Below, one piece after another: positions 297-31,716 of a stretch of DNA of 64,000 nucleotides. Numbering within the stretch: the stretch's first letter is position 1; the number at the start of each line of letters is the position of its first letter. The stretch covers positions 4,022,001 to 4,086,000 of the forward strand of contig NZ_CP025803.1 of assembly GCF_003352065.1 (NCBI RefSeq), read 5' to 3'. A model generated the notes under the pieces. That model had not been told where the DNA came from and did not search any database. It saw nothing but the letters and a program-made list of their open reading frames with translations. This DNA is from Sulfitobacter sp. SK011. GTDB taxonomy: Bacteria; Pseudomonadota; Alphaproteobacteria; Rhodobacterales; Rhodobacteraceae. A program made the translations under genes and the position numbers.

Positions 297-560
297 CTAA
301 AAGCCTGTGCTGTCCTCCAGAAACCGTTCCAGCAGACCGGGGCAAAGCGCCCTGATATCCTGTGACAACGCCTGTGCGCCATCGGCCTTGTAGGATTGGA
401 GGTGCCGCTCTGGACCGGTCCTGATCAGGATGAAAACCGGCTGTTTTGTCCCATGAAAAGCAAGGCCCGCTCTGCCACCGTGACACCCGACCTTGATGCC
501 GGATATAACGCCAACCGGCCCGGCAGCCGTCACAAACATCTTGTCCAGCACATACCTCAT
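297..560 (-). CDS. Small hypothetical protein coupled to DUF2953 gene
   Basis: This is an 87-residue protein that I do not recognise. The chosen ATG at 560 overlaps the TGA of the upstream DUF2953 gene as ATGA, a usual translational-coupling arrangement. A longer version starting at 644 would overlap that gene by nearly 90 bases and is less likely. The N-terminal half is glycine- and valine-rich and mildly hydrophobic ('VTAAGPVGVISGIKVG'). The C-terminal half is polar and looks like normal protein ('ALSQDIRALCPGLLERFLE'). It is the last gene of the GerW-DUF2953 operon before the convergent terminator. No function is proposed. Confidence 0.6.
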   Translation of the reverse strand: MRYVLDKMFVTAAGPVGVISGIKVGCHGGRAGLAFHGTKQPVFILIRTGPERHLQSYKADGAQALSQDIRALCPGLLERFLEDSTGF

Positions 561-11941: not shown

Positions 11942-13123
11942 ATGTCAGTCGCTAACAATCTCGAAATACAGATGCTTCAGCTTATCAACTCCGAAAGGGC
12001 AACCGCTGGGTTGGCACCCCTGACTTTTGCGGACAAGCTCAATGATTCAAGCGAGGATCATAGCAGCTGGATGATCGATGCGGACAATTTCTCACATACT
12101 GGCAAGGGAGGATCGAGCGCGCAGGACCGGATGGCCGACGCCGGATACAAATTCGAAGGTAACTGGAGTTCCGGTGAAAACATCGCCTTTCAAAGCGAAC
12201 GCGGGGAGCCGGGACTGTCCGATGATGTCGTGGACCTTCACAACGGACTGATGAATAGCCCCGGCCACCGGGCGAACATCCTGAATCCTGACTTCAAGCA
12301 AATCGGCATTGGAATCGAACGTGGCGATTTCACCGACAACGGATCAACTTTTGACTCGGTCTTTGTGACGCAAAACTTTGCTGCCAGTGATGCGGACAAT
12401 ACGGCGACACCGGATTCGGTCACTCCGGCACCGGATCCGGTCACTCCAACATCCGGTGATGACATGCCGGGCAACGACGAAGTCGCCGACACTGATCAAC
12501 CCACCGAAGGCGAAACTGTCGACACACCTGTCGAAGACGTGGTGGACGTGACTGATCCGGGCGAAGGTGGTGACAATGATGTCCCTGCCGACGAAGACGT
12601 GGTCGGCGCTGGCAACACCGACGAAGACTCAGACAAGCCAGATCAGGAAGATGTCGTTGGCGAAGACGACGCGCCCAAGGAGGGTGACACCGTTGCAGAA
12701 GACGACACCGAAATGCCTGTCGAAGACGACACAGTTGCAGAAGAGGGTGGCGATACGCCTGCGGACAACGAGGTAACAGATGTTGTCGATACCGATGACA
12801 CACCGTCGGACGGCGATACAGATGACGTCACGGACGATGACGACATGCTGGCCGCCGACGGGTGCGGCTTTGATTTCGGCGATATCTTTACGAACTTTGA
12901 CGGCAGTGAGTTCCTGATCAGCATCGACGCCGACGATTGGGTCAAGGCAGAAGGCCCTGATGATGCGGAGATGGTGAGCACCGTCGTCAACGCGGACGAA
13001 ACCAGTGACAGCGATGCGGGGGCCTGTGCGTTCGACATGGATACGTTCCTGCAGCAGATCAACGACATGTTCGACGGCTGCTCACAGACGCAGGCTGACA
13101 CCACACACGATGAAATGGCCTAG
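11942..13123 (+). CDS. CAP-domain protein, putative T1SS substrate
   Basis: A 393-residue protein with a CAP (SCP/PR-1) domain at about 6-150 ('MLQLINSERATAGLAPL', 'DHSSWMIDADNFSHTG', 'GYKFEGNWSSGENIAF', 'MNSPGHRANILNPDFKQIG'). A very acidic, low-complexity middle follows (about 155-300, repeated Val-Glu/Ala-Asp-Asp and Asp-Thr units). The C-terminal region has three spaced cysteines and 'FDFGDIFTNFDGSEFLISI'. There is no N-terminal signal peptide, so Sec export is unlikely. A type I secretion ATPase and HlyD adaptor lie directly downstream, so the protein is probably their cargo, with the C-terminus as secretion signal; this is inference. Acidic stretches often bind calcium, but no RTX nonapeptides are seen. 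Function outside the cell is unknown. Confidence 0.85.
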   Translation: MSVANNLEIQMLQLINSERATAGLAPLTFADKLNDSSEDHSSWMIDADNFSHTGKGGSSAQDRMADAGYKFEGNWSSGENIAFQSERGEPGLSDDVVDLHNGLMNSPGHRANILNPDFKQIGIGIERGDFTDNGSTFDSVFVTQNFAASDADNTATPDSVTPAPDPVTPTSGDDMPGNDEVADTDQPTEGETVDTPVEDVVDVTDPGEGGDNDVPADEDVVGAGNTDEDSDKPDQEDVVGEDDAPKEGDTVAEDDTEMPVEDDTVAEEGGDTPADNEVTDVVDTDDTPSDGDTDDVTDDDDMLAADGCGFDFGDIFTNFDGSEFLISIDADDWVKAEGPDDAEMVSTVVNADETSDSDAGACAFDMDTFLQQINDMFDGCSQTQADTTHDEMA

Positions 13124-13180
13124 GGCTATGGATTGGCGCCCCTTTTTGGCTCTGACCGAACTGGATGCCACCTGATCTGG

Positions 13181-13216
13181 CCCGCTCCCCGGCGCATTAC
13201 CGCGCCGGGGAGCGGG
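13181..13216 (+). terminator. Strong hairpin between CAP gene and transporter
   Basis: Perfect 15-base arms CCCGCTCCCCGGCGC (13181-13195) and GCGCCGGGGAGCGGG (13202-13216) with a 6-base loop, followed by CAAATTTT. The stem is very stable and lies between the secreted-protein gene and its transporter genes. It would reduce read-through, so that substrate is made in excess over the transporter. Confidence 0.8.
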
Positions 13217-13274
13217 CAAATTTTCCTATGGCAGTTCAGCGGAGTGCAGGAAATCACACCGCGAAAGGAAGCAC

Positions 13275-15005
13275 ATGACCAAGAAACATCAAGGGCTGCG
13301 CGAGCTGAAATTAGCATGGCATTCAGGCATCAGCCTGTTGATCCCAATCTTTATTTTCAGTGTTTTCACCAATCTGCTTTTGCTGACCGGTCCTCTGTTC
13401 ATGCTGCAGATTTATGATCGGGTGCTTGCGTCGCGATCAGAAGAAACGCTCTTGGCGCTGTTTCTGCTGGTCGGGATGCTCTACCTTTTCCTTGGCTTGC
13501 TCGACTATGCCCGCGGGCGCGTGCTTGTCCGGTTCGCGTCACGGTTTCAGGTGCTGCTGGATGAACGGGTCTTCGGCGCGGTGCTCAAATCCTCGGGCGC
13601 GGGCGGGCAGACCGGTCAAAAGTCGCATGGGCTGAGGCATCTTGAAACGGTGCAGAAATTGCTGTCCTCACCCGCGATGCTGTCGATTTTTGACCTACCG
13701 TGGGCACCCTTGTTCATATTCGCCATCTTCGTTTTTCACCCGACACTTGGATGGATTGCTGTCGCCGGCGCATTGGTTCTGGCCACCTTTACCATGCTCA
13801 ACAACCGACTGACGCGGACCCGCGCGGAAGAGGCACAATCAACCTCGCTTGCCGCGCACGGGCTTGCCGATACGGCCTCAACTCACGCGCGGCTCATCCT
13901 TGCACAGGGCATGGACGTTTCGATCCGGCGGCGCTGGCAAGAGCTTCGGGGCCGCGCATTGGCGACGGCGGCGAAATCAAGCGACTGGTCCGGCCTATTT
14001 ACGGCTTCGACGAAATCTTTCCGGTTGTTCCTGCAATCGGCGATCCTTGCGGCAGGCGCACTTTTAACCCTGCGCGGAGAACTGTCCGCCGGGGCCATCG
14101 TTGCCAGTTCGATCCTCATGGGCCGCGCGCTTGCCCCAATCGAGCAGATCCTGGGGCAATGGCAAATAATCCAGCACGCCAGCGCCAGTTGGCGGCTGCT
14201 TGCCGAACTTTTGAACGATCACCCGGTAGAGCCGGACAAGCTGGTACTTGGTCGTCCCACGGCAAGCCTGGCAGCCCGTGGCATCACCGTCCACCCGCCG
14301 TTGTCACGAACAGCGACCCTAAAGCAGATCAGTTTTGATCTTGGGCCGGGTCAGATCCTTGGCGTCGTCGGCAAAAGCGGGGCTGGCAAGTCAACGCTTG
14401 CTGAAATGATCGTGGGGCTACAACGTCCCACCGCCGGAGAACTGCGGATCGGTGGCGCAGCGACGCGGCAGTTCCGGCAGGGCGATCTGGCCAGTTATAT
14501 CGGATACCTGCCGCAGAACGTGACGTTGTTCGACGGAACAGTCGCCGAAAATATCGCACGGATGGAAGTCGAACCCGACAGCGACAAGGTCATTGCCGCC
14601 GCCAAGAAGGCCAATGCCCATGATTTCATATTGGAGCTTCCAGATGGATATCAGACGCGGATTTCCTATATCGAGGGCCGCATTTCTGGCGGGCAACGCC
14701 AGCGGATCGCTCTGGCGCGCGCGCTCTACAACGATCCTGTTCTGCTCATTCTGGATGAACCAAACTCTTCACTTGATGCTGAGGGCTCTCTCGCTCTCAA
14801 TCAGGCGATGCGGGAATTCAGGGCCGACAACCGCGCCGTCGTCATAATGACGCATCGCCCGCAGGCTCTGTCGACTTGCGACCGGCTGATCGTTCTTGAC
14901 GAAGGACGCATTGTTGCCTCTGGCCCGCGTGACGACATCCTAAAGAAATTGCTGCGAAAAGCAGACACAACACAGAAACTTTTACCTATGGCGGTGGCAA
15001 AATGA
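13275..15005 (+). CDS. Type I secretion ABC permease/ATPase
   Basis: A 576-residue fused membrane and ATPase subunit of the PrtD type, without a C39 peptidase domain. Membrane helices fill about residues 20-300 ('LLIPIFIFSVFTNLLLLTG', 'LFLLVGMLYLFLGLLDYARG'). The ATPase domain has Walker A 'GVVGKSGAGKST' (about 362-374), the signature 'ISGGQRQRIALARAL' (about 470) and Walker B 'VLLILDEPNSSLD' (about 488). It drives export of an unfolded protein from cytoplasm to outside in one step together with HlyD and an outer-membrane TolC. AAGGAAG precedes the ATG. It overlaps the HlyD gene by four bases. No TolC gene lies in this window. Confidence 0.92.
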   Translation: MTKKHQGLRELKLAWHSGISLLIPIFIFSVFTNLLLLTGPLFMLQIYDRVLASRSEETLLALFLLVGMLYLFLGLLDYARGRVLVRFASRFQVLLDERVFGAVLKSSGAGGQTGQKSHGLRHLETVQKLLSSPAMLSIFDLPWAPLFIFAIFVFHPTLGWIAVAGALVLATFTMLNNRLTRTRAEEAQSTSLAAHGLADTASTHARLILAQGMDVSIRRRWQELRGRALATAAKSSDWSGLFTASTKSFRLFLQSAILAAGALLTLRGELSAGAIVASSILMGRALAPIEQILGQWQIIQHASASWRLLAELLNDHPVEPDKLVLGRPTASLAARGITVHPPLSRTATLKQISFDLGPGQILGVVGKSGAGKSTLAEMIVGLQRPTAGELRIGGAATRQFRQGDLASYIGYLPQNVTLFDGTVAENIARMEVEPDSDKVIAAAKKANAHDFILELPDGYQTRISYIEGRISGGQRQRIALARALYNDPVLLILDEPNSSLDAEGSLALNQAMREFRADNRAVVIMTHRPQALSTCDRLIVLDEGRIVASGPRDDILKKLLRKADTTQKLLPMAVAK

Positions 15006-16312
15006 GACCAGCAGAAATCAAGAGCGCATGGCGCGCCAGACTGCCTCTGGCGATTGGATATGTAACGCTGGCTTTGCTGATCGGCATGGTGTGGGTTTGG
15101 GGAATTCAATCCAGAATTGCCGGGGCGGTCGTGTCCTCAGGTGTGATCGAGGTCGAAACCCACCGGCAGGTGATCCAGCATCCGACTGGCGGCGTTGTCG
15201 GTGAAATCCTTACCCGCGACGGGGACCGGATTGAGGCCGGCGATGTTCTGATCCGGCTTGACGACAAACTGATCCGCTCCGAACTGACAGTCATCGAAAA
15301 CCAACTGCTTGAAGCTATGGCCCACAAGGCCCGGCTGGTGGCCGAGCGGGACGGTACTGATACGATCACCCTTCCAGACGACCTGCAGCAACTGGCTGCA
15401 AAAACGCCCGACTCAGCCTCTCAAATCGAAGGCCAACAACGCCTGTTTGAAGAGCGCAGCGCGGCGCTTGTGACCGAAAAGCAGCTAATCGCCGAGCAGA
15501 TCGCGCAGATCCGCAACCAGATCACCGGAACAGAAGCGCAATTAGAGGCCTTGTCAGAACAAAACAATCTGCTCTCAGAGGAGCTGGGGAATGCGCAAAA
15601 TCTGCTCAACAAGAAGCTGGTCGAATCTTCTCGTGTTTCGCGGTTGAAGAGCGAAACCGCCGGACTGACCGGTCAGGTTGGGCAGCTTCAGGCGCAGGTC
15701 GCCCAACTTAACGGCGAGATCGCGAAGCTGATGATCGAAAAGCTGAAACTGCAAAACCAGCGCCGCGAAGAAGCTGTCGAAAATCTGCGAGAACTTGCAC
15801 CACAGGAGGTTGAGCTGGCCGAGCGGCGCTTTTCAAAACTCGAAACGCTGTCACGGATGGACATTCGTTCGCCCGTCAGCGGCATAGTCTACGGATCGAC
15901 GGTCTTTGCTCTGAAATCCGTCATTCAGCCCGCAGAACCGATCATGTACGTGATCCCGATGGAACATAAACTGATCGTTTCCGCCCGCATTGATGCCGCG
16001 AGCATTGATCAGGTCCGTGTTGGGCAGGACGTCTCGCTGCGGTTCTCGGCGTTCAACCAACGCTCGACCCCCGAAGTCCGTGGCCACGTGACAACGGTAT
16101 CGGCCGATGTGTTCACCGACGACGCAACTGGAAAGGACTATTATGAGGCGATCGTGGCCCCAGAGCAGGATGATCTGAAGACGCTGGGAAACAAGGACAT
16201 CGTGCCCGGTATGCCGGTTCAGGTATTTGTGCAAACCGAAGAGCGGACGCCGCTGAGCTATCTTACCAAGCCGCTGACCGATTACTTCACCAAGGCGTTT
16301 CGTGAAAGTTGA
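15002..16312 (+). CDS. HlyD-type membrane fusion protein
   Basis: A 436-residue periplasmic adaptor. It has a single N-terminal membrane anchor (about 15-37), a lipoyl-like half 'GVIEVETHRQVIQHPTGGVV', long coiled-coil stretches (about 130-285, rich in Gln, Glu and Leu) and the C-terminal 'LSRMDIRSPVSGIVYGSTV' and beta-barrel region that closes the lipoyl fold. This is the standard plan of the HlyD/PrtE adaptors that link the inner-membrane ATPase to TolC. Its start overlaps the ATPase stop (ATGA), so the two are co-translated. Together with the upstream CAP protein they form a complete secretion unit apart from TolC. Confidence 0.92.
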   Translation: MRPAEIKSAWRARLPLAIGYVTLALLIGMVWVWGIQSRIAGAVVSSGVIEVETHRQVIQHPTGGVVGEILTRDGDRIEAGDVLIRLDDKLIRSELTVIENQLLEAMAHKARLVAERDGTDTITLPDDLQQLAAKTPDSASQIEGQQRLFEERSAALVTEKQLIAEQIAQIRNQITGTEAQLEALSEQNNLLSEELGNAQNLLNKKLVESSRVSRLKSETAGLTGQVGQLQAQVAQLNGEIAKLMIEKLKLQNQRREEAVENLRELAPQEVELAERRFSKLETLSRMDIRSPVSGIVYGSTVFALKSVIQPAEPIMYVIPMEHKLIVSARIDAASIDQVRVGQDVSLRFSAFNQRSTPEVRGHVTTVSADVFTDDATGKDYYEAIVAPEQDDLKTLGNKDIVPGMPVQVFVQTEERTPLSYLTKPLTDYFTKAFRES

Positions 16313-16674: not shown

Positions 16675-19600
16675 ATGGATAAGAGCCTTTTTCAGTTCAT
16701 CTGGAAATATTCAAAGCGCGATCAGCTTGTCTTGCTGGGCGTTACTCTGCTGACGTTCCCCTTGCTTTATGTTTCATTGGAATTGCCCAAGCGGATCATT
16801 AATGACGCAATCGGCGGGTCCGGCAACGATGTAACGGTGCTGGGCATTACGCTGAGCCAGATCCAATTCTTGATGGTGCTTTGCATTGGCTTCTTGCTGG
16901 CTGTGCTGGCGAACGGGCTTCTTAAAATGAAGCTGAACACCATGAAAGGTGTGCTGGCAGAACGCCTGCTTCGACGGTTTCGATTTCAGCTTCTGACGCG
17001 CCTCCTGCGGTTTCCGCGCCCGTTTTTTCGCACAACCAGCCAGGGTGAATTGGTATCGATGGTGACATCCGAAGCAGAGCCCATGGGCGGCCTCATGGGG
17101 GATATGCTGTCGCAGCCGGTGTTTCAGGCCGGGCAGATGATGACCATTCTGGTATTCCTGTTTGCACAGAGCTTCTGGTTCGGTTTGGCATCCGTCGCGT
17201 TGATCCCCCTGCAAGCCTGGATCATCCCAAAGCTGCAGCGCCAGATCAACCAACTCAACAAGGCCAGGATTCAGGAAGTGCGCAGACTGGCCGCCGACAT
17301 TGGTGAGACCGCTGTCGGAGTGAGCGATATTCGGACCAACGGCGGACTTCGTCATAGGATGTCATTGTTTTCGGACCGGTTGGGAAGCCTGTTTGGCATT
17401 CGGCTGGAGATCTACCAAAAGAAGTTCTTCATGAAGTTCCTGAACAACTTCATCAACCAATTGACCCCGTTCTTTTTCTATTCGGTCGGCGGATATCTTG
17501 CGATCACAGGGCAGATTACCGTGGGCGCGCTTGTTGCTGCATTGGCGGCGTACAAGGATTTGTCGTCGCCCTGGAAAGAGCTTCTCGCCTATTACAACCA
17601 GACACAGGATATGGCGCTGCGCTGGGAAGTTGTTACTGAAAAATTCGCCCCCAAGACTTTGGTCGATGACGCATTGTTTGAGGGTGCACCCGACACATTC
17701 CCCGACCTGAAAGGCGACATAGAATTAGATGATGTGACGGTGTTTGATGATGAGGGGCACCCGGTTTTGGAAGATATCAATCTCGTGATTCCTCAGGGCG
17801 CACGCGTTGCCATAAAGACGAATAGTGAAACCGCGGCTTTGGCCTTTGCAGATGTTCTGACGCGAGAGGTTATTCCCCACCGTGGAAAAGTGCGGATCGC
17901 CGGGCATGAATTGAATGAACTACATCAGGCTGTGGTCGCCAACAGCATCGGGTACGCCCATTCAAAACCCCAGATATTTCAGGGGACGCTTGGCGAAAAC
18001 CTGTTGATGCCGTTCAAAAGCGCGCCTGCTGCTGCCCTTGAAACAGCCTATGCCGTGGTGCGCCGCCAAGAAGAATCCGCGCGCTCAGGCAACAGTGTCG
18101 ATCCGTTCGACGTCGATTGGGTTGATCCCAAACTTGCCGGATTTGAAACGTCCGACGATATCCGCGAATGGTGGTTTCAACTTGTCGAGGCCATGGGCAT
18201 CGATGATTTTATGGTGCGACGCGCGCTCCGATCCCGTCTTGAACCAGACGCGCAGCCTGAGCTTGTCGATGCAATTGTGAAGATGCGGCCAGAGATTGCC
18301 CGCCGCCTCAGCAAGGCCGGGCTCGACGACATAGTGTATGCTTTTGATCCCGAAAAATTCAATCCGGTTTCTCCGCTGGCAAGCAATCTTTTATATGCGT
18401 TGCCCACTCGGTTTTTGACGCAGGAAACGCTGTCAAAAGAAGCCGGCTTTGTCGAAATGTTGGCAGAAAACGGGATTGTGGATGAACTTGCGCAGATCTC
18501 GGTCGGTGTCATTGAAGGGCTGACAGCGACCTTTGGTAATGACGGCACCGATCATCCGCTGTTTCGGCGTCTCAATATGGACGATGAATTGTATCATCGC
18601 CTTAGTGCCATAACGACAAAACGGCGCGAGGTTGGGGATGCAGGTTTGCCGCCTGACGATTTCGCGTTGATGCTGACGGTGCCATTTGCGTTTTCGGCAG
18701 AACAGATCGGCCCCGCTTTCAGCGCGTCTTTCAAAGAACGTGTTCTGGAAATCAGAAAGCACAAAGCCCAACAGATCGTGGCGGAACTTGACGGGATGTT
18801 TGAAACCATCGACCCGCTGAAATACATCCCGGTGATGTCCGTTCTTGGCAATGCGATCTTTGGTCGAGTCTCAAGCATGGCCGGGGCGCGGGAAAAACAG
18901 GTTGAAGACATCGCCGTCGAAGTGCTGAACGAGAATGGGGTCAGGCGACTGGCCGCTCAATCAGTTTTTGACCTCGTGACCTCGCAAGGCGGGGAAAATC
19001 TGCCAGCGGTATTTCGTGAGCGGATCGCCTTTAGCCGTGCCGGGATCAAGAAACCGGATATTCTGATCCTGGGGAATGCGCTGGCCAGCCATGATGAAAA
19101 TGCACGTTCGCAGATGCGTGATCGGATCAGCGATCTGATGCCTGATACGACGAAAATATTCATTGAAAGAGAATTCCTAAATCCCGAAGCTTATGACTTG
19201 ATCGTAGAGATCAAGGACGGCCGGATCGACGGTGGCGCACGCGACGAAGACCCCGGCGATGAAGATGCGCGGCAAGACCTGAATCGCAAGTTGCGAATTG
19301 TGGCTCAGACCGAACTTTTTGCTGGTCTCGACCAAAAACAACAACGATTGCTCGCCTTTAGCAGCCAATGGTACAAGACCAAAGCTGGACAAGTGATCTT
19401 TGAGGCTCAGCAAGACGCAGACGCGGCGTATTTGTGCGTAAAGGGTTTGGCAGGGTTGTATTGGCCTGACGCGGAAAGTCAGAACATTCTTATTTCAGAA
19501 ATCAAACCCGGACGGTTGATCGGTGATCTGGCTGTGATTCAAAATCAAAAACGCCCCCTGAACCTGATAGCTATCGAAGACAGTGTGTTTCTGCGGATCG

Positions 19601-19779
19601 GTGCCAACGAACTATTGGCTGTCATTGAGAACGACGCCGCAGTAGCGACGAGCCTGCTGCGCTCCGTTGCCAATCACCTGATGGGTGCCGCAGATAACCT
19701 GCGCGCAACTCGGGCCTTTGCGGTCGAGCGCGGGTTGGATTTGTCTGAACTGGACGCAAGGCAGACGGAAAACAGTTAA
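16675..19779 (+). CDS. Degenerate ABC transporter protein with cNMP domain
   Basis: A protein of about 1034 residues (start ATG with GAGGA 10 bases upstream). Residues about 1-330 are an ABC-exporter-type membrane domain. The ATPase-like domain starts near 350 ('LEDINLVIPQGARVAIKTN'), but the Walker A lysine motif is missing ('VAIKTNSETAALAFADVL'). The late half ('ERIAFSRAGIKKPDILILGN') lacks a normal LSGGQ and the Walker B Asp-Glu. About 330 residues are inserted between these halves. The C-terminus (about 890-1010) resembles a cyclic-nucleotide-binding domain ('LFAGLDQKQQRLLAFSSQWY', 'GRLIGDLAVIQNQKRPLNLI'). It therefore probably does not hydrolyse ATP as usual, and may be a regulated or partner-dependent membrane protein. 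It follows the type I secretion genes but is 360 bases away. Confidence 0.75.
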   Translation: MDKSLFQFIWKYSKRDQLVLLGVTLLTFPLLYVSLELPKRIINDAIGGSGNDVTVLGITLSQIQFLMVLCIGFLLAVLANGLLKMKLNTMKGVLAERLLRRFRFQLLTRLLRFPRPFFRTTSQGELVSMVTSEAEPMGGLMGDMLSQPVFQAGQMMTILVFLFAQSFWFGLASVALIPLQAWIIPKLQRQINQLNKARIQEVRRLAADIGETAVGVSDIRTNGGLRHRMSLFSDRLGSLFGIRLEIYQKKFFMKFLNNFINQLTPFFFYSVGGYLAITGQITVGALVAALAAYKDLSSPWKELLAYYNQTQDMALRWEVVTEKFAPKTLVDDALFEGAPDTFPDLKGDIELDDVTVFDDEGHPVLEDINLVIPQGARVAIKTNSETAALAFADVLTREVIPHRGKVRIAGHELNELHQAVVANSIGYAHSKPQIFQGTLGENLLMPFKSAPAAALETAYAVVRRQEESARSGNSVDPFDVDWVDPKLAGFETSDDIREWWFQLVEAMGIDDFMVRRALRSRLEPDAQPELVDAIVKMRPEIARRLSKAGLDDIVYAFDPEKFNPVSPLASNLLYALPTRFLTQETLSKEAGFVEMLAENGIVDELAQISVGVIEGLTATFGNDGTDHPLFRRLNMDDELYHRLSAITTKRREVGDAGLPPDDFALMLTVPFAFSAEQIGPAFSASFKERVLEIRKHKAQQIVAELDGMFETIDPLKYIPVMSVLGNAIFGRVSSMAGAREKQVEDIAVEVLNENGVRRLAAQSVFDLVTSQGGENLPAVFRERIAFSRAGIKKPDILILGNALASHDENARSQMRDRISDLMPDTTKIFIEREFLNPEAYDLIVEIKDGRIDGGARDEDPGDEDARQDLNRKLRIVAQTELFAGLDQKQQRLLAFSSQWYKTKAGQVIFEAQQDADAAYLCVKGLAGLYWPDAESQNILISEIKPGRLIGDLAVIQNQKRPLNLIAIEDSVFLRIGANELLAVIENDAAVATSLLRSVANHLMGAADNLRATRAFAVERGLDLSELDARQTENS

Positions 19780-20659
19780 TGCCGGCAATCTAATGCGGAT
19801 GAGGGTCCGCCAGCCTGATACCGGATTAGGAGGACCGTCCAAAAGAGGATCGATACAAAAGGATGCCGATTATCTACGCTGCAGCAAAAGACGCCAATGT
19901 AATCGCCCGCAACAAGGCGGCATCAGCGCAGGACATGGTTACATCTGGAATGCAAACCTGTCGCTGTCCGGGTCCGACCTGGAAGAGGCCTGAATAAAAT
20001 GTCCCCGGCGCAATCTTGATGGCGCATGGGACCCAATTCCCACCTGGTCCCTTCACAATCGCCCCACGGCGAACGTTCTGAGCGCCCGGTGGTGGGCTGG
20101 CAGCCATCTCGGAGAGATCGAACAGTTTTTTGATATCGCAGTTCAATTCGATTCCTTTCTTCGATTTGGGTAGGTAATAGACCGATATTATGTTCGAAAA
20201 ATGGCACCTTTTTGCCGATCTTGATCCATCTGTTCAATTTCTCTTGAGCTATCGCAGTGGGATGGCCTGACCATTCATCCCCGTCTTAAATCTCTGATCG
20301 GTAATGCAACCTATAGGTGATTGAATAGGGTCCAGAATGAGACATAATGGCCTGATTCAGCCTAGAATCCGCCCTACCGCAGGAAGCCGACCCATCGTGA
20401 TTATGAACGACAGAAAGCATCTGCCATCATCACAAACGCAAAAACCGCATCAGCAGTCAGTATTCGCCTGTCCAAGAGTAACGACTTCAAATCAGGCTGG
20501 GTGAGGATTGCCAAAAAAGCGCACTTCTCGCAATAAGTGAACCTTGTTGAAAGGTAAGGTGTTATTTATGGTAATTTCAAAGTATTCATGTCAGTCAATG
20601 ACCGACCAAAAGATTATTGGTTGCTCATTTTTTTGTTATTAAACGTGCGGAGATAGAGT
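19780..20659. other. Long gene-poor stretch, AT-richer towards the right
   Basis: About 880 bases with several short open frames on both strands but no ribosome-site-supported or recognisable protein. The last 150 bases are AT-rich and must hold the promoter of the regulator at 20660; no clear -35/-10 pair is visible. No tRNA, repeat array or transposase remnant was recognised. Confidence 0.4.
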
Positions 20660-21541
20660 TTGTATCAGTCCAAAGACAGTGGTGGCGTAACTGTAGCTAT
20701 GTTGCGCGCTTTTATAACTTTAAGCAAAACTTTGAATTTAACTAAGGCATGCGACGAACTGAAAACAACGAGACAGACTGTGCGACGGCACATCAATGAC
20801 CTCGAAAGGATCAAGGGACAGCCACTATTTGTAGTTGAAAATCGCGAATATTCGATGACACCTTTTGGAAAGGCGTCAGTTGCAGACGCTGAGACCATAT
20901 TAAGGCACATCGAAACCTGGTCGGGCCAGTCTCAGGTCACCAAGCAAAGTTCGCAATGGCTGGAAGTGAGCAGCTATCTCGACCCTGACGGACGTGAGTT
21001 TTTTTCCCAGCAGCAGCCTATGTTTCGGCTGGCCTCCAACGGCCTGCCCATTATGAAGACCGCCCTTGGTGCCTGGGGGATGGCTCAAACGCAAATCGAA
21101 GATCCTGCGATGGCCGACGTCAGGCCCTATCTGGTGATCTACAGAAAGGGCGTGAACGGTTGGGTTTTTGTCGAAGTGGGCAAGAGTTCAGCTTATGCAA
21201 AATGGTTTGGATGGGCTTGGTCAAAAAGCGCCATCGGAAAACTGATGCAGGAAGACAACGTTGGCGATGATTTCAATGAATTCATCTCTGGGGCTTATTC
21301 ACGCATCTACGGCGAAGGGGGTGTTCGCCTTGATCACCTTTATGCCTATCTTCCGAAAGAAGACAGCGACGAGGTGATACCGGTCAGTTTTCAACGCTTG
21401 TTGATGGGCTGCGTCTTTCCTGATGGGACTCCAGGTCTTGGCGTTCTGGTTCTAATCACGAACGATATCGAAATCGATGCTCTTGAGTCTGTGGATGTTC
21501 CTGGCGTACCGCAGGAACTTGTCATGGACTTCGAACTTTAG
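20660..21541 (+). CDS. LysR-type HTH regulator with unfamiliar sensor domain
   Basis: A 293-residue protein with TTG start; GGAGA lies seven bases upstream. Residues about 10-75 form a LysR-like winged helix ('AMLRAFITLSKTLNLTKACD', 'TTRQTVRRHINDLER', 'QPLFVVENREYSMTPFG'). The rest does not read as a LysR periplasmic-binding-type effector domain. It has 'YLVIYRKGVNGWVFVEVGKS' and 'AKWFGWAWSKSAIGKLMQED', which look more like a PAS-like or unknown mixed fold. It would act as a DNA-binding regulator, probably of the two genes that follow (unknown protein and MFS transporter), which are separated by a stem-loop region. The ligand is unknown. Confidence 0.7.
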   Translation: MYQSKDSGGVTVAMLRAFITLSKTLNLTKACDELKTTRQTVRRHINDLERIKGQPLFVVENREYSMTPFGKASVADAETILRHIETWSGQSQVTKQSSQWLEVSSYLDPDGREFFSQQQPMFRLASNGLPIMKTALGAWGMAQTQIEDPAMADVRPYLVIYRKGVNGWVFVEVGKSSAYAKWFGWAWSKSAIGKLMQEDNVGDDFNEFISGAYSRIYGEGGVRLDHLYAYLPKEDSDEVIPVSFQRLLMGCVFPDGTPGLGVLVLITNDIEIDALESVDVPGVPQELVMDFEL

Positions 21542-21560
21542 TTGGTCTTTGTGTTAAATA

Positions 21561-21586
21561 TAAATGTGGGGCAAGTACCCCATTTA
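21561..21586 (+). promoter_or_regulatory. Stem-loop between regulator and acyltransferase-like gene
   Basis: TAAATGTGGGG (21561-21571) and CCCCATTTA (21578-21586) pair with a two-base bulge and a 6-base loop, about 50 bases before the next start. AT-rich sequence surrounds it. It could be a terminator for the regulator gene or an operator; there is no T-run. Confidence 0.35.
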
Positions 21587-21634
21587 AATGAAAAATTCTG
21601 TTAAGGCCGAGTAGGTCAATACAAGGGAAAGCTA

Positions 21635-22390
21635 ATGTCAGCACTCGGCCTATACAACACGATCAATAGCGTCTCGGGCATTATCAAGAAGCTTGAAGAA
21701 GCAGGGATGCGTGTTGAGATCGGAGACGACTTTGCGGCTTACCGAAGGATACGGAACTTACAGAAAGACCGATCAGGACTGTATCCGATGTTCGATGTTA
21801 CTTGTTCTTACGTCGATCAGTCCAACGCATTCTGGGTTTGCGGATTTAATGAAACCGACGAGCTGGTTCACACGCAGGCAATAAGACTGTTGGATTTGTC
21901 AGGCGTAACACTTGGCCAGCACATGGACATGCACCGGCACAAGTACATGACGCCAAACTCAACACCTGATCCGGATCGCACCTATTATTCTCGACCCCAA
22001 GCCCTGCATAAGATCACTGGAAAAGTCTGCTATCACGGTGATTTCTGGCTGAAGGCTGGTGATGGCGGGCATAGAAAGCTGGGCTTAACACCTCTTCTTT
22101 CGCGCTTCGTTCTGGAAATGGCGCTGAAGACCTGGGTGCCTGACTATGTGTTCGGCTTTGTACCGACAACATTGTCGTACAAAGGAATCCAGGCTCGCTA
22201 CGGCTATACCCACTGCGAACCCGGTGTATGGCTTGGACCTGACAATCAAGTGACCGATGAAGACGCACTTGTCTGGATGAACACGGAAGAGATCATGCAC
22301 TTCCTGGAGATCCAACCCGGAGAAATGTCACATGATCGCCATAATGCTGCACAAAGTTTGATGGTAAGACCAATTGGTGTCGTTGCTTGA
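21635..22390 (+). CDS. Unknown protein, possibly GNAT-fold acyltransferase
   Basis: A 251-residue protein that I do not recognise by name. Its layout recalls N-acyltransferases: an early 'YRRIRNLQKDRSGLYPMFDV', a strand pair with 'AFWVCGFNETDELVHTQAIR', and a later 'YVFGFVPTTLSYKGIQARYG' followed by 'YTHCEPGVWLG'. The 'G..R.GY' late in the chain is typical of GNAT-like folds, but a clear acetyl-CoA loop (Q/RxxGxG/A) is not seen. The stop overlaps the start of the MFS transporter gene (TGATG), so the two are co-translated. A product made here may be exported by that transporter; this is inference. Confidence 0.55.
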   Translation: MSALGLYNTINSVSGIIKKLEEAGMRVEIGDDFAAYRRIRNLQKDRSGLYPMFDVTCSYVDQSNAFWVCGFNETDELVHTQAIRLLDLSGVTLGQHMDMHRHKYMTPNSTPDPDRTYYSRPQALHKITGKVCYHGDFWLKAGDGGHRKLGLTPLLSRFVLEMALKTWVPDYVFGFVPTTLSYKGIQARYGYTHCEPGVWLGPDNQVTDEDALVWMNTEEIMHFLEIQPGEMSHDRHNAAQSLMVRPIGVVA

Positions 22391-23613
22391 TGGCATTTAA
22401 TGATTTCCAACGGATGTCGATAAGATCAATGTCAGACAGTGCTTGCATTGAACCGAAAAAACAGCGTTTTGCGATGACCTTGGCGTCACGCAGAACGATC
22501 ATCAGTTCGATTGCCGCAAGCATTGCTTTCGTGATGGAATTGACTTTGGTTCCGCTGGTTCTTCCAGCAATTCAGACATTTTATGATTTGACGCTCAGCC
22601 ACGTTGCCTGGGTCTTCAACTCCTATGGTATCTCGGTGGCACTTGGTGTCATCGTTGGAGGCTTGATCGGGGATGCTTTCAACATCAAAAGAGTATTTGC
22701 TACCGGCGTCGTGATGTTCGCCTTGGGGGCAGCCATCGTTGCATATGCAGCGAACTTCGAGATGCTGATTGCAGGTCGCGTTCTGCAGGGTTTTGGGGGT
22801 GGTATTTTCTCGCCATTGGTCCCGCTTCTCCTCACCAGAACGTTGCCGCATCGACCGGGTAAGATCCTAATCATATGGGGCAGTTTAACAGGGTACGTGG
22901 CGACTTTTGCCCCTCTGGCCCTTAGCCAGACGATCACATCCACCGGTTGGCAATCGGTATTTGTTCTATTCGCAGTTCTCGCAGGCGTCGCGCTGATCTT
23001 GTCTGTGAAAACGGAAGCCGGGAAATTTATGCCCAGCGCCCAGAAGTTACCAAATCTGGGTTTGCTGTTTGGCACAGGCGATGTCTGGCTCGTCTTCGGC
23101 TACATCTTCTGTACATATGGTGCCATCACCTTTTTCCTGTTCAGACTACCGCTCTGGTTGGCAGATATTGACTACAGTGTGAATTCGATTGGCCTCATCC
23201 TGGCTGCGATTTGGCTCTCATTTTCAATCGTCGGAACGCTCCTGCGAAATTGGGTGGACAGCTACCATGTGCGGATTATCGTTCTGGCGGCACCGTTCCT
23301 GATCGCGGCCAGCTTTCTGGTCGTATACTTCTACCATGGAATAGGATGGCTCACTTTATCCGCTGCATTGGTTGGGGCTGGATTTGCCTGCAGCAATGCG
23401 CCATCAACCCAATTGGTCCTGCAATTCGCTCCGCAAAGTCTGAGCGCCATCTGCACAAGCCTCGATATCACATTCGCAAGGCTTGGAGGCGTTGCAGCAG
23501 TTGCTTTGCTGGCACAGGCAGGGTTTGCCGCGTCCGTTGGGTCGGTTGTTCTGCTGTCGTTTGTCGCTCTGATCTGTGCGCTGGTTTTCTTGCGAAAAGT
23601 CGTCGATAGCTAG
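22390..23613 (+). CDS. MFS transporter
   Basis: A 407-residue membrane protein of the major facilitator superfamily with about 12 membrane helices. The start at 22390 overlaps the previous stop as TGATG. Family features: 'FVMELTLVPLVLPAIQTFYD' in helix 1, 'VGGLIGDAFNIKRVFATGVV' (motif A-like loop 2-3) and 'AGRVLQGFGGGIFSPLVPLL' (helix 4). This helix 4 pattern is typical of the DHA2-like drug:proton antiporters, so export of a small molecule is most likely. It is co-translated with the acyltransferase-like unknown gene and follows the LysR-like regulator, so the three probably make up one export unit. Confidence 0.85.
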   Translation: MAFNDFQRMSIRSMSDSACIEPKKQRFAMTLASRRTIISSIAASIAFVMELTLVPLVLPAIQTFYDLTLSHVAWVFNSYGISVALGVIVGGLIGDAFNIKRVFATGVVMFALGAAIVAYAANFEMLIAGRVLQGFGGGIFSPLVPLLLTRTLPHRPGKILIIWGSLTGYVATFAPLALSQTITSTGWQSVFVLFAVLAGVALILSVKTEAGKFMPSAQKLPNLGLLFGTGDVWLVFGYIFCTYGAITFFLFRLPLWLADIDYSVNSIGLILAAIWLSFSIVGTLLRNWVDSYHVRIIVLAAPFLIAASFLVVYFYHGIGWLTLSAALVGAGFACSNAPSTQLVLQFAPQSLSAICTSLDITFARLGGVAAVALLAQAGFAASVGSVVLLSFVALICALVFLRKVVDS

Positions 23614-23997
23614 TTTCTGTTGGCTCTGTCGCAGTGCCTTGCGCATCAATCGACCCTGAGCGGACAATGGCATGCAGCGATCGTGAACCAGCCCGCCTCT
23701 TACACCGCACCGCTCTGAACCCTGAGTTCATTGATTTAGACATATCCATATTTATGGGCTGGTGCGTTTAATCCCCCGCTTTGGCCTTGCTACATTAACC
23801 CACCCGCGCACGCGCCCCGGGATGAAATCACATTCTCGTTGTGAATGATGGAGCCTTTGGGGGCCGGGTCGGGTGCTCAAATAGATTGCAGCGCAAACCA
23901 AAGACACCGTCCAGATTTTGAACCGAAGATACTGGTTAAGTTAACAGCGGCTTGCTAGACCACAGCCCAGGTCACAAAAGAACTGGAAGAAGTCGAG
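23614..23997. other. Intergenic region before the polysaccharide-type genes
   Basis: About 384 bases without a supported gene; the minus-strand open frames over it are extensions opposite the MFS gene. No terminator with a T-run, no tRNA and no complete insertion sequence end were found. Confidence 0.4.
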
Positions 23998-25074
23998 ATG
24001 ATGCGGAAATGCTTGATCGTTCAGTTTGAACCTCGTCATGAAGAGGTGCTTCCTTCAGTCATCGCGGCATGTAATTTTGCAGGCTATCGACCCACAGTTC
24101 TGCTGAACCGCAGGATTAAGCGGGTCCGCGGTGACATCTTTCAGCTTGTTCAGGGGGGCATTGCAGATATTCGATATCATTCTTTGTCGCCGGATCAGGA
24201 CGCAGAAGCGGTTGATTGGGATCGCGAGTTGGCAGACGACATAGATTTCGTCATCGTAAATACATTAAACCGACCCAAGGTCGCGAACTGGGCGAAACGA
24301 TGCGGCAAGCCGGTCATTGCGCTGATACACAATGTCGACCAATTCATGAAAAACCCCAAATTCACTGATCTATTGGGGCGGCCTGATTTTGTATTCATGA
24401 CCTTGGGAATGCATGTGACGTCCGCATTGAACGCGCGTACCGATGGGAAATACATAGATAAATTTGGGTTCCTTGCCCCCTATGTGCTCACCGACACACC
24501 GCAAGATTATCACGTGTCGACCCCACGCAAAGTTGTTGTTCCGGGCAACTTGACGTTGCGATCGCGGAACTACCTTGGACTGATTGATGCATTGTCTGCC
24601 GATCCTGCGCGATGGGAAAATCTTGTCTTTGAGTTTCCGTCCAGCGGTGACTCTCGGGATCTGGTTGCAGACGCTATCGCAGAAAATAAATTGAGCCATA
24701 AGATCACGATCTTGCCTGCGGGTGCGAACAATGAAGTGCCGCATGAAGATGTTTTTAATTGCTTTCGTTCGGCAACGTTCTTCCACCCGTTGATCGCAGA
24801 TGGTTTTGCACAATATCAAACGATCAAAATAACTTCGACCACATCTATGTCGGTTGGCTTTGGTGTTCCGATGATCATGGATCGCTATTCTGAATCCTGC
24901 TACCGGTTTCCGATGCTCGTCTCTGACCACTCAATTGAAGCGACGCTCGACCGTCTCTCGACAGCTGAGGAACGGGAGTTGATGGACATCAGCGCCAAGC
25001 TCACTGCGTATCGGACAGATATGACAGTGCGATCTGGTCGAGATATGGCGCGAATGATCTCCTTGATCGTATAG
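23998..25074 (+). CDS. Glycosyltransferase-like protein, GT-B-type fold
   Basis: A 358-residue cytosolic protein with no signal peptide. The order of elements fits a two-domain glycosyltransferase: N-terminal 'CLIVQFEPRHEEVLPSVIAA' and 'FVIVNTLNRPKVANWAKRCG', then 'KVVVPGNLTLRSRNYLGLID', 'HKITILPAGANNEVPHEDVF' and 'FFHPLIADGFAQYQTIKITS'. The last segment looks like the place where GT-B enzymes bind the nucleotide sugar. I do not recognise a named family. It is next to a hydrolase, a GT61-FkbM fusion and a sulfotransferase-glycosyltransferase fusion, which supports a role in a surface polysaccharide or glycan. Confidence 0.5.
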   Translation: MMRKCLIVQFEPRHEEVLPSVIAACNFAGYRPTVLLNRRIKRVRGDIFQLVQGGIADIRYHSLSPDQDAEAVDWDRELADDIDFVIVNTLNRPKVANWAKRCGKPVIALIHNVDQFMKNPKFTDLLGRPDFVFMTLGMHVTSALNARTDGKYIDKFGFLAPYVLTDTPQDYHVSTPRKVVVPGNLTLRSRNYLGLIDALSADPARWENLVFEFPSSGDSRDLVADAIAENKLSHKITILPAGANNEVPHEDVFNCFRSATFFHPLIADGFAQYQTIKITSTTSMSVGFGVPMIMDRYSESCYRFPMLVSDHSIEATLDRLSTAEERELMDISAKLTAYRTDMTVRSGRDMARMISLIV

Positions 25075-25078
25075 ATCA

Positions 25079-25864
25079 CTATTTTGGCGTCACCGCTGAC
25101 ACCAACGCATCCGCGGCGTTTGACGAAGAAGGTTGCACAAGGTGACCGGAGTCAAAATCCTGCCTGAAAACAGCGCCATTTCGCCGCATCAAGCGTCTGA
25201 ACCTGTAAGGTCTGCCGTTTATCGCAGCACTGATTATATCGGACAATTGCTGCTTGCGTTTCAGCTTCCTGCTTAGGTTATGGCCTTGGTCTTGAACGAT
25301 ATAATGGCGCAATCCATGAAACTGAGAGAATTTCTGTGCATGTAGCAATTCCCCGGGCGTATCCCCATGAACGATGAAAACGGTTTGACCTTCCGTTCTT
25401 CGCAGCCTGACCTCTGGGAAGTCATAGGTTTTGATGTTCTTTCTGTATTTTCTCCACCGCTTTTCTTCCGGCATAACATCCGGTGAGACTGAATATTGCG
25501 GCACAATTGCCAACACGGTCTTTGCCCCAACCAAATCTTTGAGAAGCAAGGCCATCGTCCCCCCCATGGAATTGCCCAACAAGTGAATGTCAGAAGTTCC
25601 CACCTCCTTGGCGAACGCCCCGATCCGATCAATTATTTGGGCACTTACACCATCACCGTTCAGCCAACTCCGGCTCTTGTCGCTGATGAAGAGGGCATGG
25701 TTTTTCTGATCTTCTGTCGCGGATTTGAAAAACTCAAAAGGAGGGTATTCATCGGGGTTCTGCCCCACACCACTTAGAACAACAACCAGCTTGTCCGATG
25801 TCCCGCGCCAGCAGGCCATCCGCAAAGGTTCCTTTGCCTGAATTATCTCAAGTTCTTGCTTCAA
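25079..25864 (-). CDS. Alpha/beta hydrolase-like protein
   Basis: A 261-residue protein. Features of the alpha/beta hydrolase fold are 'LVVVLSGVGQNPDEYPP', the nucleophile elbow 'HLLGNSMGGTMALLL' (Gly-x-Ser-x-Gly, Ser in 'GNSMGG'), 'GQTVFIVHGDTPGELLHAQK' with a candidate acid, and 'VQDQGHNLSRKL' with the catalytic His. The start is a TTG at 25864; an ATG 15 codons further in, after AAGGA, is the alternative. It converges with the glycosyltransferase-like gene, four bases apart. A role as an esterase, deacetylase or acyltransferase on surface glycans is possible from the neighbourhood; the substrate is not visible. Confidence 0.7.
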   Translation of the reverse strand: MKQELEIIQAKEPLRMACWRGTSDKLVVVLSGVGQNPDEYPPFEFFKSATEDQKNHALFISDKSRSWLNGDGVSAQIIDRIGAFAKEVGTSDIHLLGNSMGGTMALLLKDLVGAKTVLAIVPQYSVSPDVMPEEKRWRKYRKNIKTYDFPEVRLRRTEGQTVFIVHGDTPGELLHAQKFSQFHGLRHYIVQDQGHNLSRKLKRKQQLSDIISAAINGRPYRFRRLMRRNGAVFRQDFDSGHLVQPSSSNAADALVSAVTPK

Positions 25865-25918
25865 CAGAAACCGTTTTGCATTCTTGGCATGGTCGAGATG
25901 TCCATTGCTCGCCCTCTC

Positions 25919-27775
25919 TTAATTGTTTCTCTGCGCCGCCCAGACAAATTCTGATGATTTTCGGGGCACTGGATCAAGGCCAGATTGTCTCAGAAGCTGC
26001 TTACAACGCGACATCCCATCCATACCATAGACATCTGGATGGAACTCCATGACCACCACATTGATCCCTGACAAATCAGCGCCTTCAAGGAAATCAAGCT
26101 CTCCACCTTCAATATCCATTAACAGAACTGTGGGAGCGAAATCCGCTTTCACGGCTGCATAATCATACGCTGGCACTGTAATTTGCTCAGACAGTTCACG
26201 TTTTGGGGTGTCTAATGATGAAAATGCAAAGCGCTTGGAGACATTGAATGTGACACTTTCAGGAACGTCATTGCCGCTTAGAAGTGCGCCATTGGTCACC
26301 GAAATGGTGTGATCCACCTTATTGTGCTTGTAGGTCGCCTCAATCACAGGGATCAAATTCGGGTTTGCTTCAAAGGAAAGCACCTTCTGAGGTTTACAAT
26401 TATGCGCGATCGTTGTGCCGACAATCCCAATGCCGGCCCCACATTCCAGGACCCGGTCCGTTGACTTGACAAGATGTAGAGCGCCCGCAATTTCCTCTTT
26501 TTCATATCGCCCGTTGTTTATCTTTCGAACCAACCATTTGGGGTCGGTGGCAAAGGATTTGGGCACTTGGATACCATGGCAACTGGCGACGATCCCTTTT
26601 GGCAGAGCGTCTGGAGCAGGTTTGGATTGGGGGCGGAAGGTGAATTTACTGCTCTTTTCGAGATCTTTGAGATAGCGGCGTTGGGTGGCTTCACTGGTTT
26701 CTTTCCACCCCTTATTTGTTGCCATGCCCGCATCAGCCAGTTGTTTGCCTAATGCCGGCAGATCAAGTGTCGCCAATGAAAACCGGTCAACGCGCTTCCT
26801 GTCTGATCTAATCCAATTTTCGCCAATTGCATCTATTACCAGCGGGCGCGTACCGGAAAACGATGCCAGATGATTTTCGATCCCGCCAGCGGCGGATGAA
26901 CTGCGCCGCTTGATCATCGCAATTTTCTGATCTGGCCTGGCAACCATCGCAAGAAGATGCAGGGCGGATCCATCAGGGGCGACAATCTCGCGTGCTGCTT
27001 TGTATCGCGCGATCTGCGTTTCGACGTCTTCCTGTTGCGGGTGAAATATGGTGTACCTGCTTTTCTTTAGCTGCTCCTCAACGACCGTCTCACCGATTAT
27101 TCCACCACGCCGCGCACCAAAGGCTGAGCGCGAAATATAGAGCCGTTCGGGTCCTTCCGGCGAAATGTTTTGTGCAAAATTTTCTTTAATGAAGGCTCTG
27201 AATTTAGGGGTACCGGTTGTCATGCGCGACATCCCAAACCCCTGCCCCGGCACCCAAAGTTTCGTCACTTCCGTTAGGGCGCTCACAATGCCGATTGGGG
27301 CCTTGATCCCAAGATGGGTAAATATCTGGTCTTGAAAACGCGATAAGAATGGGTTTTCAGCCGTATGCCATCTGACAGCTTTGCCATCCGACGACGCATA
27401 TGGGCGTTTCCTTAAGAACAGCACACCGTCGATCTTGCCTGGAATCTCGCCATACCCCCAGATGCGACCAAGCGTTTCCACTAGAAAATGCCCAAAATGA
27501 TCATGGAGGACGCCACCCCAAAGATAGGTGCCTTCCAATACGTCCTTGGGGGCCGACAAATCCAAAACCTTGGGGAGGGTCATGAGTGGTTTCCCTCGCC
27601 ACAGCACAGTATCGTGGCAGTAGCTCTTGTCACGGTCGAAAACGCCACATTCCTGAACCAGCCCTCTGTGAACAGAAGGTACCACATATGCGCCATCTAA
27701 TTCGCGGATCTGATGGGCCCAATTCTGCAAGTCAGTGGGATTCGGCGGCTGCATAGCCGCTTCATTGACGTTCAT
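25919..27775 (-). CDS. GT61 glycosyltransferase-FkbM methyltransferase fusion
   Basis: A 618-residue protein joining two enzymes. Residues about 20-330 match the DUF563/GT61 family ('GTYLWGGVLHDHFGHFLVET', 'RLYISRSAFGARRGGII', 'IVAPDGSALHLLAMVARP'). Residues about 405-618 match FkbM-type SAM-dependent methyltransferases ('VLECGAGIGIVGTTIAHN', 'VLSFEANPNLIPVIEATYKH', 'TVLLMDIEGGELDFLEGADL'). GT61 enzymes transfer sugars such as xylose or GlcNAc, and FkbM enzymes methylate sugar hydroxyls, so the product could be an O-methylated glycan. ATG at 27775 has AGGT ten bases upstream; GTG at 27793 is possible. It is divergent from the sulfotransferase fusion at 28070. Confidence 0.82.
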   Translation of the reverse strand: MNVNEAAMQPPNPTDLQNWAHQIRELDGAYVVPSVHRGLVQECGVFDRDKSYCHDTVLWRGKPLMTLPKVLDLSAPKDVLEGTYLWGGVLHDHFGHFLVETLGRIWGYGEIPGKIDGVLFLRKRPYASSDGKAVRWHTAENPFLSRFQDQIFTHLGIKAPIGIVSALTEVTKLWVPGQGFGMSRMTTGTPKFRAFIKENFAQNISPEGPERLYISRSAFGARRGGIIGETVVEEQLKKSRYTIFHPQQEDVETQIARYKAAREIVAPDGSALHLLAMVARPDQKIAMIKRRSSSAAGGIENHLASFSGTRPLVIDAIGENWIRSDRKRVDRFSLATLDLPALGKQLADAGMATNKGWKETSEATQRRYLKDLEKSSKFTFRPQSKPAPDALPKGIVASCHGIQVPKSFATDPKWLVRKINNGRYEKEEIAGALHLVKSTDRVLECGAGIGIVGTTIAHNCKPQKVLSFEANPNLIPVIEATYKHNKVDHTISVTNGALLSGNDVPESVTFNVSKRFAFSSLDTPKRELSEQITVPAYDYAAVKADFAPTVLLMDIEGGELDFLEGADLSGINVVVMEFHPDVYGMDGMSRCKQLLRQSGLDPVPRKSSEFVWAAQRNN

Positions 27776-28069
27776 CGGTAGCGTTACCTGCACTGCGTAG
27801 CATCTCTTCCGGAGGCTTTTCTTTGGATCACCTATAGCGAGAAATCGGTCATAATGCCAGTTTTTTCCCCCCTTTCCGATCCCCGCGCGTCAAGACAAAG
27901 CAGTGTCTGCGTCACCCTAAAGAACTTAGGAAGTGCCTCATTTCATAAGACTTTCCCGTATTGAAAGATAGGCGAGACCTAGCAAAATTCCCGGACATCA
28001 GCTGTTGTATGAAAGCAATCAACCACTCATAATTCCCAAAAACAGAATGCACACGGAAAGGTTACGAGA

Positions 28070-29920: not shown

Positions 29921-30223
29921 TTCTGGAGGATATCGGTTTGGCCCAACTCACCGAACCGCACTCATCCTCCGCTCGAACTTGGACCAGTCACGATTTGTGC
30001 CGCTGTGTTGCTAGTAATCGCGCAGCAGTCCAGCGTGGGTTTTGTAACGGCGACCTACTGATTAAAAGTTATTATGAGACGGATTCTTATAGTATAGCTT
30101 ACCTGAACATATCAGCTATTACCTCTTTGTAATATATAGTATAATTTACGTTCTTCACAATCATACTTGAACATAGAGCACCCTCCTTATACCTTCGATC
30201 TATGTGACTAGAAAGAGACTAGA
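29921..30223. other. AT-rich intergenic region before the integrase
   Basis: About 300 bases. A TATAAT box is at 30140-30145, about 80 bases before the integrase start, but the expected -35 position ('TATTAC') is poor. No tRNA, and no direct repeat that I could match as an attachment site. Confidence 0.4.
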
Positions 30224-31321: not shown

Positions 31322-31716
31322 GACCGCATGTGTTCAATTGAGCGCGCTGCTAACGAATCTACCATACTAGTTTGCCAACGATCGCGGGCTCAGCAGTTTC
31401 TGCTACCACAAGTCGATTGTCTTTGTGGCGATCAGGTGTACGTCGTTCATGTACCCTGATGATTCATCAAATACCTGAATATAGTTTTGCGGATCCCGCA
31501 AAGATAACCCGCGCGGGTAACAACGTGTAGTTCATCTGCGACCGCTCCAACAAGAGATGCGGTTCACTATCGCTCACACTTTCGCATCCATATTCCTTAC
31601 CAAACCAACGCAATACTCCAATAATCTCGAAATTTGAGGCAGTTTTGAAATTACAGTATTATCCCAGAACTTTTCGTCTTATCACCCCTGTGACCACTTC
31701 CCGGATGATCACCTGC
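31322..31716. other. Intergenic region with tandem palindromes
   Basis: About 395 bases between the integrase and the GntR operon, without a supported gene. The only structures seen are two adjacent palindromes at 31487-31518, listed separately. Confidence 0.4.
31487..31518. promoter_or_regulatory. Two adjacent palindromes upstream of GntR gene
   Basis: TTGCGG-ATC-CCGCAA at 31487-31501 and the perfect 12-base ACCCGCGCGGGT at 31507-31518, five bases apart. They lie about 200 bases before the GntR-SDR operon. They may be operator sites for the GntR protein, or hairpins ending transcripts from the integrase side. Confidence 0.4.

Follow-up and report, generated by a model that had tools for sequence, protein, structure and literature searches.

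Introduction

Among the closest described systems are the type IV ABC exporters (PCAT1, ComA, TmrAB and MsbA), which share with the protein reported here a membrane domain and the fold of the nucleotide-binding domain (NBD). It differs from these exporters in being without ATP-site motifs, in an insertion of ~290 residues between the Q-loop and the signature, and in a C-terminal cyclic-nucleotide-binding (cNMP) domain. CFTR and SUR resemble it in that an ABC architecture serves as gate or regulator; both keep nucleotide-binding sites, and neither is known to have a cNMP domain.

HetC offers a precedent for a cNMP-type domain fused to an ABC exporter, being described as a peptidase-containing exporter whose cNMP domain binds ppGpp in vitro (PMC10986499). 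By that account, however, HetC carries its cNMP domain at the N terminus and needs its ATPase and peptidase residues to function (PMC10986499). SbmA/BacA shares the ABC-type membrane fold and, as a SLiPT, is described as transporting without ATP, driven by protons (PMC13316013). SLiPTs are described there as having neither NBD nor coupling helices (PMC13316013), whereas our protein keeps a predicted NBD fold and its membrane domain matches Pfam ABC_membrane only.

Here, we analyze a 1034-codon gene in a stretch of 64,000 nucleotides of Sulfitobacter sp. SK011 (the window). A search of open-licence PubMed Central papers, a scope with most subscription papers outside it, returned no paper on the ABC-like family or on the glycan cluster described below.

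Results

An exporter-like protein with a predicted NBD fold and no ATP-site motifs

The features of the gene are collected in Table 1. Relatives align from the start MDKSLFxFIWK, and a TTG 30 nt upstream is a possible alternative start. The original prediction of a normal membrane domain held, with Pfam ABC_membrane at residues 40-290 (E 6.5e-18) and structural matches to exporters, and so did that of a cNMP-type tail (PF00027 at residues 903-987, E 5e-13, 49.3 bits against a cut-off of 27.5). The Pfam scan found no ABC_tran in the protein and nothing between these two domains; ABC_tran was recognised in 24 of 26 family members scanned, but not in the window protein. NCBIfam exporter models scored far under their cut-offs.

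Table 1. Features of the 1034-codon gene, with coordinates in the window
Feature	Coordinates	Strand	Basis
Whole ORF, 1034 aa and stop	16675..19779	+	ORF list and translation
ABC-exporter membrane domain, residues 1-323	16675..17643	+	Pfam ABC_membrane, model helices, identities
Dead ATPase domain, N-terminal part, residues 345-450	17707..18024	+	alignment to solved exporters, model, structural match
Former Walker A, residues 382-389, TNSETAAL	17818..17841	+	alignment
Former Q-loop and ENLL motif, residues 425-445	17947..18009	+	alignment; N442 invariant
Insertion, ~residues 455-745	18037..18909	+	alignment/profile; no Pfam family in this stretch
Repeat copy T2, residues 530-605	18262..18489	+	profile comparison
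Repeat copy T3, residues 685-760	18727..18954	+	profile comparison
Dead ATPase domain, C-terminal part, residues 765-850	18967..19224	+	alignment to solved exporters, model, structural match
Former ABC signature, residues 776-780, LPAVF	19000..19014	+	alignment
Former Walker B, residues 796-801, ending GN	19060..19077	+	alignment
Cyclic-nucleotide-binding domain (Pfam span), residues 903-987	19381..19635	+	Pfam
Pocket stretch Asp951 to Arg960	19525..19554	+	pocket alignment

Residues 65-446 and again 765-854 align to solved exporters. In the AlphaFold2 monomer (mean pLDDT 81.3, pTM 0.65), the membrane-domain helices are present, with pLDDT under 50 at 158-175 and 284-296, and the nucleotide fold is kept, matching the ComA NBD (3vx4_A, Z 23.7, rmsd 2.2, 220 aligned). 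SUR2 chains are also among the structural matches. Hence, the absence of an NBD that marks SLiPTs was not found in the model.

We confirmed that the protein has lost the GK(S/T) of Walker A, the LSGGQ signature and the Asp-Glu of Walker B, since the aligned residues are TNSETAAL, LPAVF and, at 800-801, GN. Ser430 stands at the Q-loop position and Arg832 at the H-loop position; the D-loop Asp807 is retained. Thus, the working set of ATP-site motifs (Walker A, signature, Walker B Asp-Glu and H-loop His) is absent from the window protein.

The insertion carries an internal repeat

An insertion of 330 residues splitting the ATPase had been predicted; the insertion is present, with a length of ~290. 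From N442 to L776 there are 334 residues, compared with 44 from the post-Q-loop Asn to the signature in the canonical type I secretion (T1SS) ABC protein of the window. The segment had also been called unknown, and it indeed matches no Pfam family, but it carries a tandem repeat with weak likeness to the Q-loop segment of the ATPase. T2 and T3 are copies of each other (profile comparison, E 4.8e-18, score 84.4; best of 30 shuffles 17.2), and each holds an N-LLFG-like motif with an invariant Asn (N571, N726). The motif also follows the Q-loop (N442, invariant), where similarity beyond it is weak. A putative third copy there (T1, residues 400-470) gave weak scores of 28.7 and 26.6 over 16 and 26 columns. 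When columns were shuffled 30 times, the comparison of T1 with T2 reached 14.5 at best. In a control of 75 windows with the eight highest scores listed, five overlap their comparison segment, two are the window 380-455 that holds most of T1, and the remaining one reached 21.0. Because T2 and T3 are copies and the N-LLFG-like motifs are shared, tandem copying probably contributed to the origin of the insertion; the copied piece was perhaps part of the NBD itself, which is the uncertain step.

Modelled alone with its flanks, the insertion gave a confident prediction (88.4). Against solved structures, its sequence profile reached a best E of 0.091 and its model a best Foldseek E of 0.68, and a second structural search with the model gave a best Z of 3.6, with two IrtAB rows (Z 2.3 and 2.1) treated as noise. 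This absence of a structural match does not show that the fold is new.

The cNMP pocket is conserved, fused or separate

In the clade of the window protein the cNMP domain is fused, and in most sampled members from other taxonomic families it is a separate protein encoded just downstream. Across 51 loci from other families and 3 from the same family (54 in all), it is fused in 7, just downstream in 41 and absent by our criterion in 6, at least two of which do show a cNMP gene nearby. We found pocket Arg960 invariant in both states (110/110 fused, 41/41 separate), and position 951, which lies two strands earlier, carries an acid (Asp or Glu) in all 151. We take Asp951 and Arg960 to be the acid and the Arg of the phosphate-binding cassette. 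Fused pockets are less canonical, with Leu for Ala at 962 in 80/110 and Asp for Glu at 951 in 76/110; the window protein has Asp951, Arg960 and Leu962. The sensing side is retained where the ATP side is lost. Since the HetC domain binds ppGpp, the ligand of this tail need not be cAMP.

The family is alphaproteobacterial

A search with the insertion profile found the family in 147 of 387 Alphaproteobacteria genomes, and in a phylum-wide sample 26 of 299 genomes matched, every one from the same class. Among the named holders are Ruegeria, Phaeobacter, Azospirillum, Rhizobium and Sinorhizobium, and a RefSeq plasmid annotates the gene as 'ABC transporter transmembrane domain-containing protein'. 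The family also occurs in metagenome bins named Granulosicoccus and Oceanospirillaceae, by possible transfer or mis-binning. Six copies 66-70% identical to the window protein (L072, L073, L074, L075, L078 and L079, among the best 80 of 571 relatives) come from bins named Gammaproteobacteria, which likewise hints at lateral transfer or mis-binning.

Within the genus, 4 of 58 genomes (G025, G038, G047 and G050) have no good full or split match among the matches listed. Outside the genus but in the same taxonomic family, 2 of 5 genomes match in the class set and 2 of 21 in the phylum-wide set, among the genomes listed; such patchy presence would speak against a core role. Counts at the loci come from a BLAST-guided neighbour pass, used because longer antisense ORFs can mask family genes; two neighbour clusters (c34 and c35) looked like antisense ORFs and were dropped. 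This is an old alphaproteobacterial family, real and conserved, with known parts in an unusual combination.

The family co-occurs with a glycan cluster

The gene adjoins, in many other taxonomic families, a six-gene cluster that encodes four glycosyltransferases (two GT28-like, two GT4) together with a histidine phosphatase and a polysaccharide deacetylase. Pfam supports the identity of the first five, and the sixth, which has no Pfam hit, is named from the RefSeq annotation of a Sulfitobacter dubius plasmid. On a Sinorhizobium meliloti plasmid, the ABC-like gene stands in a row with the cNMP gene and three of the glycosyltransferase genes. At least three of the six genes lie nearby at 34/54 other- and same-family loci, 6/23 genus loci and 0/80 close-relative loci (best 80 of 571), counts that are lower bounds because stretches are cut by contig ends.

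Even when they lie apart, the genes tend to share a genome: among the 387 class genomes, we found both the family and the first GT28-like gene in 142, the family only in 5, the glycosyltransferase only in 1 (143 with the gene in total) and neither in 239; co-occurrence was scored on this gene alone, and the Fisher test ignores shared ancestry. The gene is present in 35 of 36 Sulfitobacter genomes searched. In the window genome, the six-gene cluster lies at ~C1:3422516-3428530 with no family gene adjoining, and the window gene lies elsewhere. Since this genome has three full-length family copies, the co-occurrence is not assignable to the window copy. This near-exclusive co-occurrence with sugar-polymer genes suggests a pump turned signal-operated part of a surface-sugar system.

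The type I secretion genes appear incidental

The gene does follow T1SS genes, as noted earlier, with the HlyD ORF ending at 16312, 362 nt upstream. The proposed link to the CAP and T1SS genes did not hold up: seven window proteins (CAP, T1SS ABC, HlyD, LysR and those encoded at 21635, 22387 and 23998) were compared with the ORFs of 165 other loci (stretches of ~5 to 21 kb) at E 1e-30 and coverage over 60%, with no hit. A T1SS partnership was rejected on this count, and the adjacent secretion genes are, judging from gene content, incidental. The region 11942-16312 encodes a CAP-domain protein that ends in a long acidic part and may be a secreted T1SS substrate, followed by the T1SS ABC and HlyD genes. 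Positions 20001-32000 have a GC content of 0.48-0.52, compared with 0.53-0.62 elsewhere in the window, and are perhaps acquired DNA.

Discussion

A proposed signal-operated device without ATP hydrolysis

We propose that the window protein belongs to a surface-glycan system, as an ABC-derived component that responds to a cyclic nucleotide and does not hydrolyse ATP, a reading we hold with belief and doubt in about equal parts. It would be a membrane protein derived from an ABC exporter that has lost ATP hydrolysis, its ATPase fold surviving as a structural relay enlarged by the repeat-bearing segment. A cyclic nucleotide would bind the tail, and the dead ATPase domain would relay the change to the membrane domain. 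In this way the protein would gate or scaffold the handling of a surface glycan that the cluster makes, or of its lipid-linked precursor. Of this reading, the ligand, the gating and the substrate are the inferred parts. The loss of ATP-site motifs, the predicted fold, purifying selection, the cNMP pocket residues and the co-occurrence with the glycosyltransferase gene are the basis in sequence or model. This evidence favours a protein that does not hydrolyse ATP, is controlled by its cNMP tail and serves a glycan pathway. The original prediction of a sensor or scaffold made from a transporter fits, in that the ATP motifs are gone, the predicted fold is kept, the pocket is conserved and the loss of Walker A is old and shared.

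In a FastTree phylogeny of 94 sequences, fused members group in a single clade (47 sequences, support 0.992), and 3 of the 47 have the Walker A Lys. That proportion suggests that Walker A decayed after fusion; this clade is not recovered in a membrane-domain tree of 82 sequences, where fused members are split and support at deep nodes is low. A bolder reading is that the nucleotide input was exchanged, with the ATP site abandoned after the cNMP fusion and cyclic nucleotide gating an ATP-independent translocator or channel for the glycan or glycolipid of the cluster, a course of events that we find doubtful though plausible.

Could the ATP site still work?

Loss of the motifs was counted in 158 aligned sequences, among them relatives of the window protein and 51 members from other families of the class; the close relatives are 80 loci (best 80 of 571) and 23 genus loci. 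In neither set does any member have the Walker A Lys or the catalytic Glu of Walker B (0/80 and 0/23 for each), and Arg stands at the Lys position in 68/80 and 15/23. The Walker B Asp is still there in 47/80 and 7/23, so motif loss is incomplete in some. All three copies in the window genome are without Walker A and the catalytic Glu, and one has the Walker B Asp.

The 51 members from other families differ. Their Walker A has Lys in 32 and Arg in 16 (together 48), its Ser/Thr position has Asp/Glu in 42 and Ser/Thr in 2, and the Walker B Asp position has Asn/Ser in 39 and Asp in 5. In canonical ABC proteins, the residues at these two positions act at the Mg site. This charge swap, an acid in Walker A and Asn/Ser in Walker B, is near-uniform among these loci (e.g. 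L036:8405-11122). As a control, 30 canonical exporters from the same genome set were chosen with a search pattern containing Walker A or GGQ, and two atypical picks were kept; their Walker A count (28/30 Ser/Thr) is therefore biased, and the Walker B Asp, which was not a selection criterion, is present in 30/30.

Since the 51 members also have the Walker B Glu in 30 and the signature Gln in 45, ATP might outside the window's clade be bound, and perhaps hydrolysed, at a charge-swapped Mg site, with the cNMP partner only regulating. The fused member L167:7941-11252, possibly an intermediate, retains the GKS of Walker A and the DE of Walker B and would agree. However, the H-loop His is found in just 18/51 and the Walker A Ser/Thr in those two members, and for the window protein this activity is impossible because it has no Lys, Glu or signature. 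We consider such a non-canonical active ATPase unlikely.

Does the membrane domain work alone?

Across the 51 members, conservation is highest in the membrane domain, whose mean pairwise identity is 0.52, compared with 0.40, 0.43 and 0.43 for other parts (NBD 0.40-0.43), and in the 30 canonical exporters the order is reversed (membrane domain 0.37, NBD 0.59). The genus also holds membrane-domain-only relatives of 402-472 aa without NBD (L046:9310-10518, L048:8421-9839, L068:8079-9476 and L069:8170-9471), with rows from at least 26 of 58 genomes. They have an N-terminal extension with a hydrophobic stretch, and the Pfam scan covered all but L048. L068 has a plastocyanin-type copper protein and an outer-membrane efflux protein as neighbours. 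These relatives are possibly another NBD-free ABC-fold lineage besides SbmA. A second membrane-domain-only kind (L070:8116-9144, 342 aa) directly follows dipeptide-type ABC ATPase genes.

Both the conserved membrane domain and these NBD-free relatives would agree with secondary transport or channel activity that is independent of ATP and performed by the membrane domain, with the NBD remnant as a dimer clamp, and SbmA, described as ABC-like, proton-driven and without NBD, is a precedent (PMC13316013). Yet the NBD fold and the insertion are maintained under selection, and in the membrane-domain tree of 82 sequences the NBD-free relatives branch outside the fused members and are not descended from the fused clade. 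Hence, we judge this alternative improbable.

Half of a heterodimer, or a relic?

The protein might instead be the inactive half of a heterodimeric exporter with a canonical ATP-hydrolysing partner, as in TmrAB or TM287/288. Such pairs exist and are among the top structural matches to the model, and a distant partner gene elsewhere in the genome is conceivable; but no full-length canonical half-transporter lies nearby at any of 157 other loci, some in stretches cut by contig ends. Moreover, the degenerate halves of known heterodimeric exporters still bind ATP, for which Walker A is needed. We regard this arrangement as very improbable.

Of 20 domain comparisons with four relatives at 69-83% identity, 8 were saturated and 12 had a usable dS, the latter giving dN/dS of 0.029-0.172; several dS values exceed 2 and are rough. 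The five usable NBD ratios are 0.084, 0.145, 0.172, 0.083 and 0.054. These ratios indicate that the protein is under purifying selection and no relic. The original prediction had named intact homologues as the sign of recent decay, a sign that the close relatives do not show: the Walker A loss is common to all 103 close relatives counted and so is old and shared, and distant members do keep partial motifs. Although every ATP-site motif is lost, a recently decayed copy heading to a pseudogene is hardly credible, and was rejected, given the open frame, the low dN/dS and this shared loss.

If the proposed mechanism of a cyclic-nucleotide-responsive, non-hydrolysing component is right, a bacterial ABC pump would have been turned into a signal-operated membrane device, with stages of the change still living: unfused members with the charge swap, fused members with partial motifs, and members in which Walker A is lost. 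In addition, a widespread alphaproteobacterial glycan system would gain a probable membrane component.
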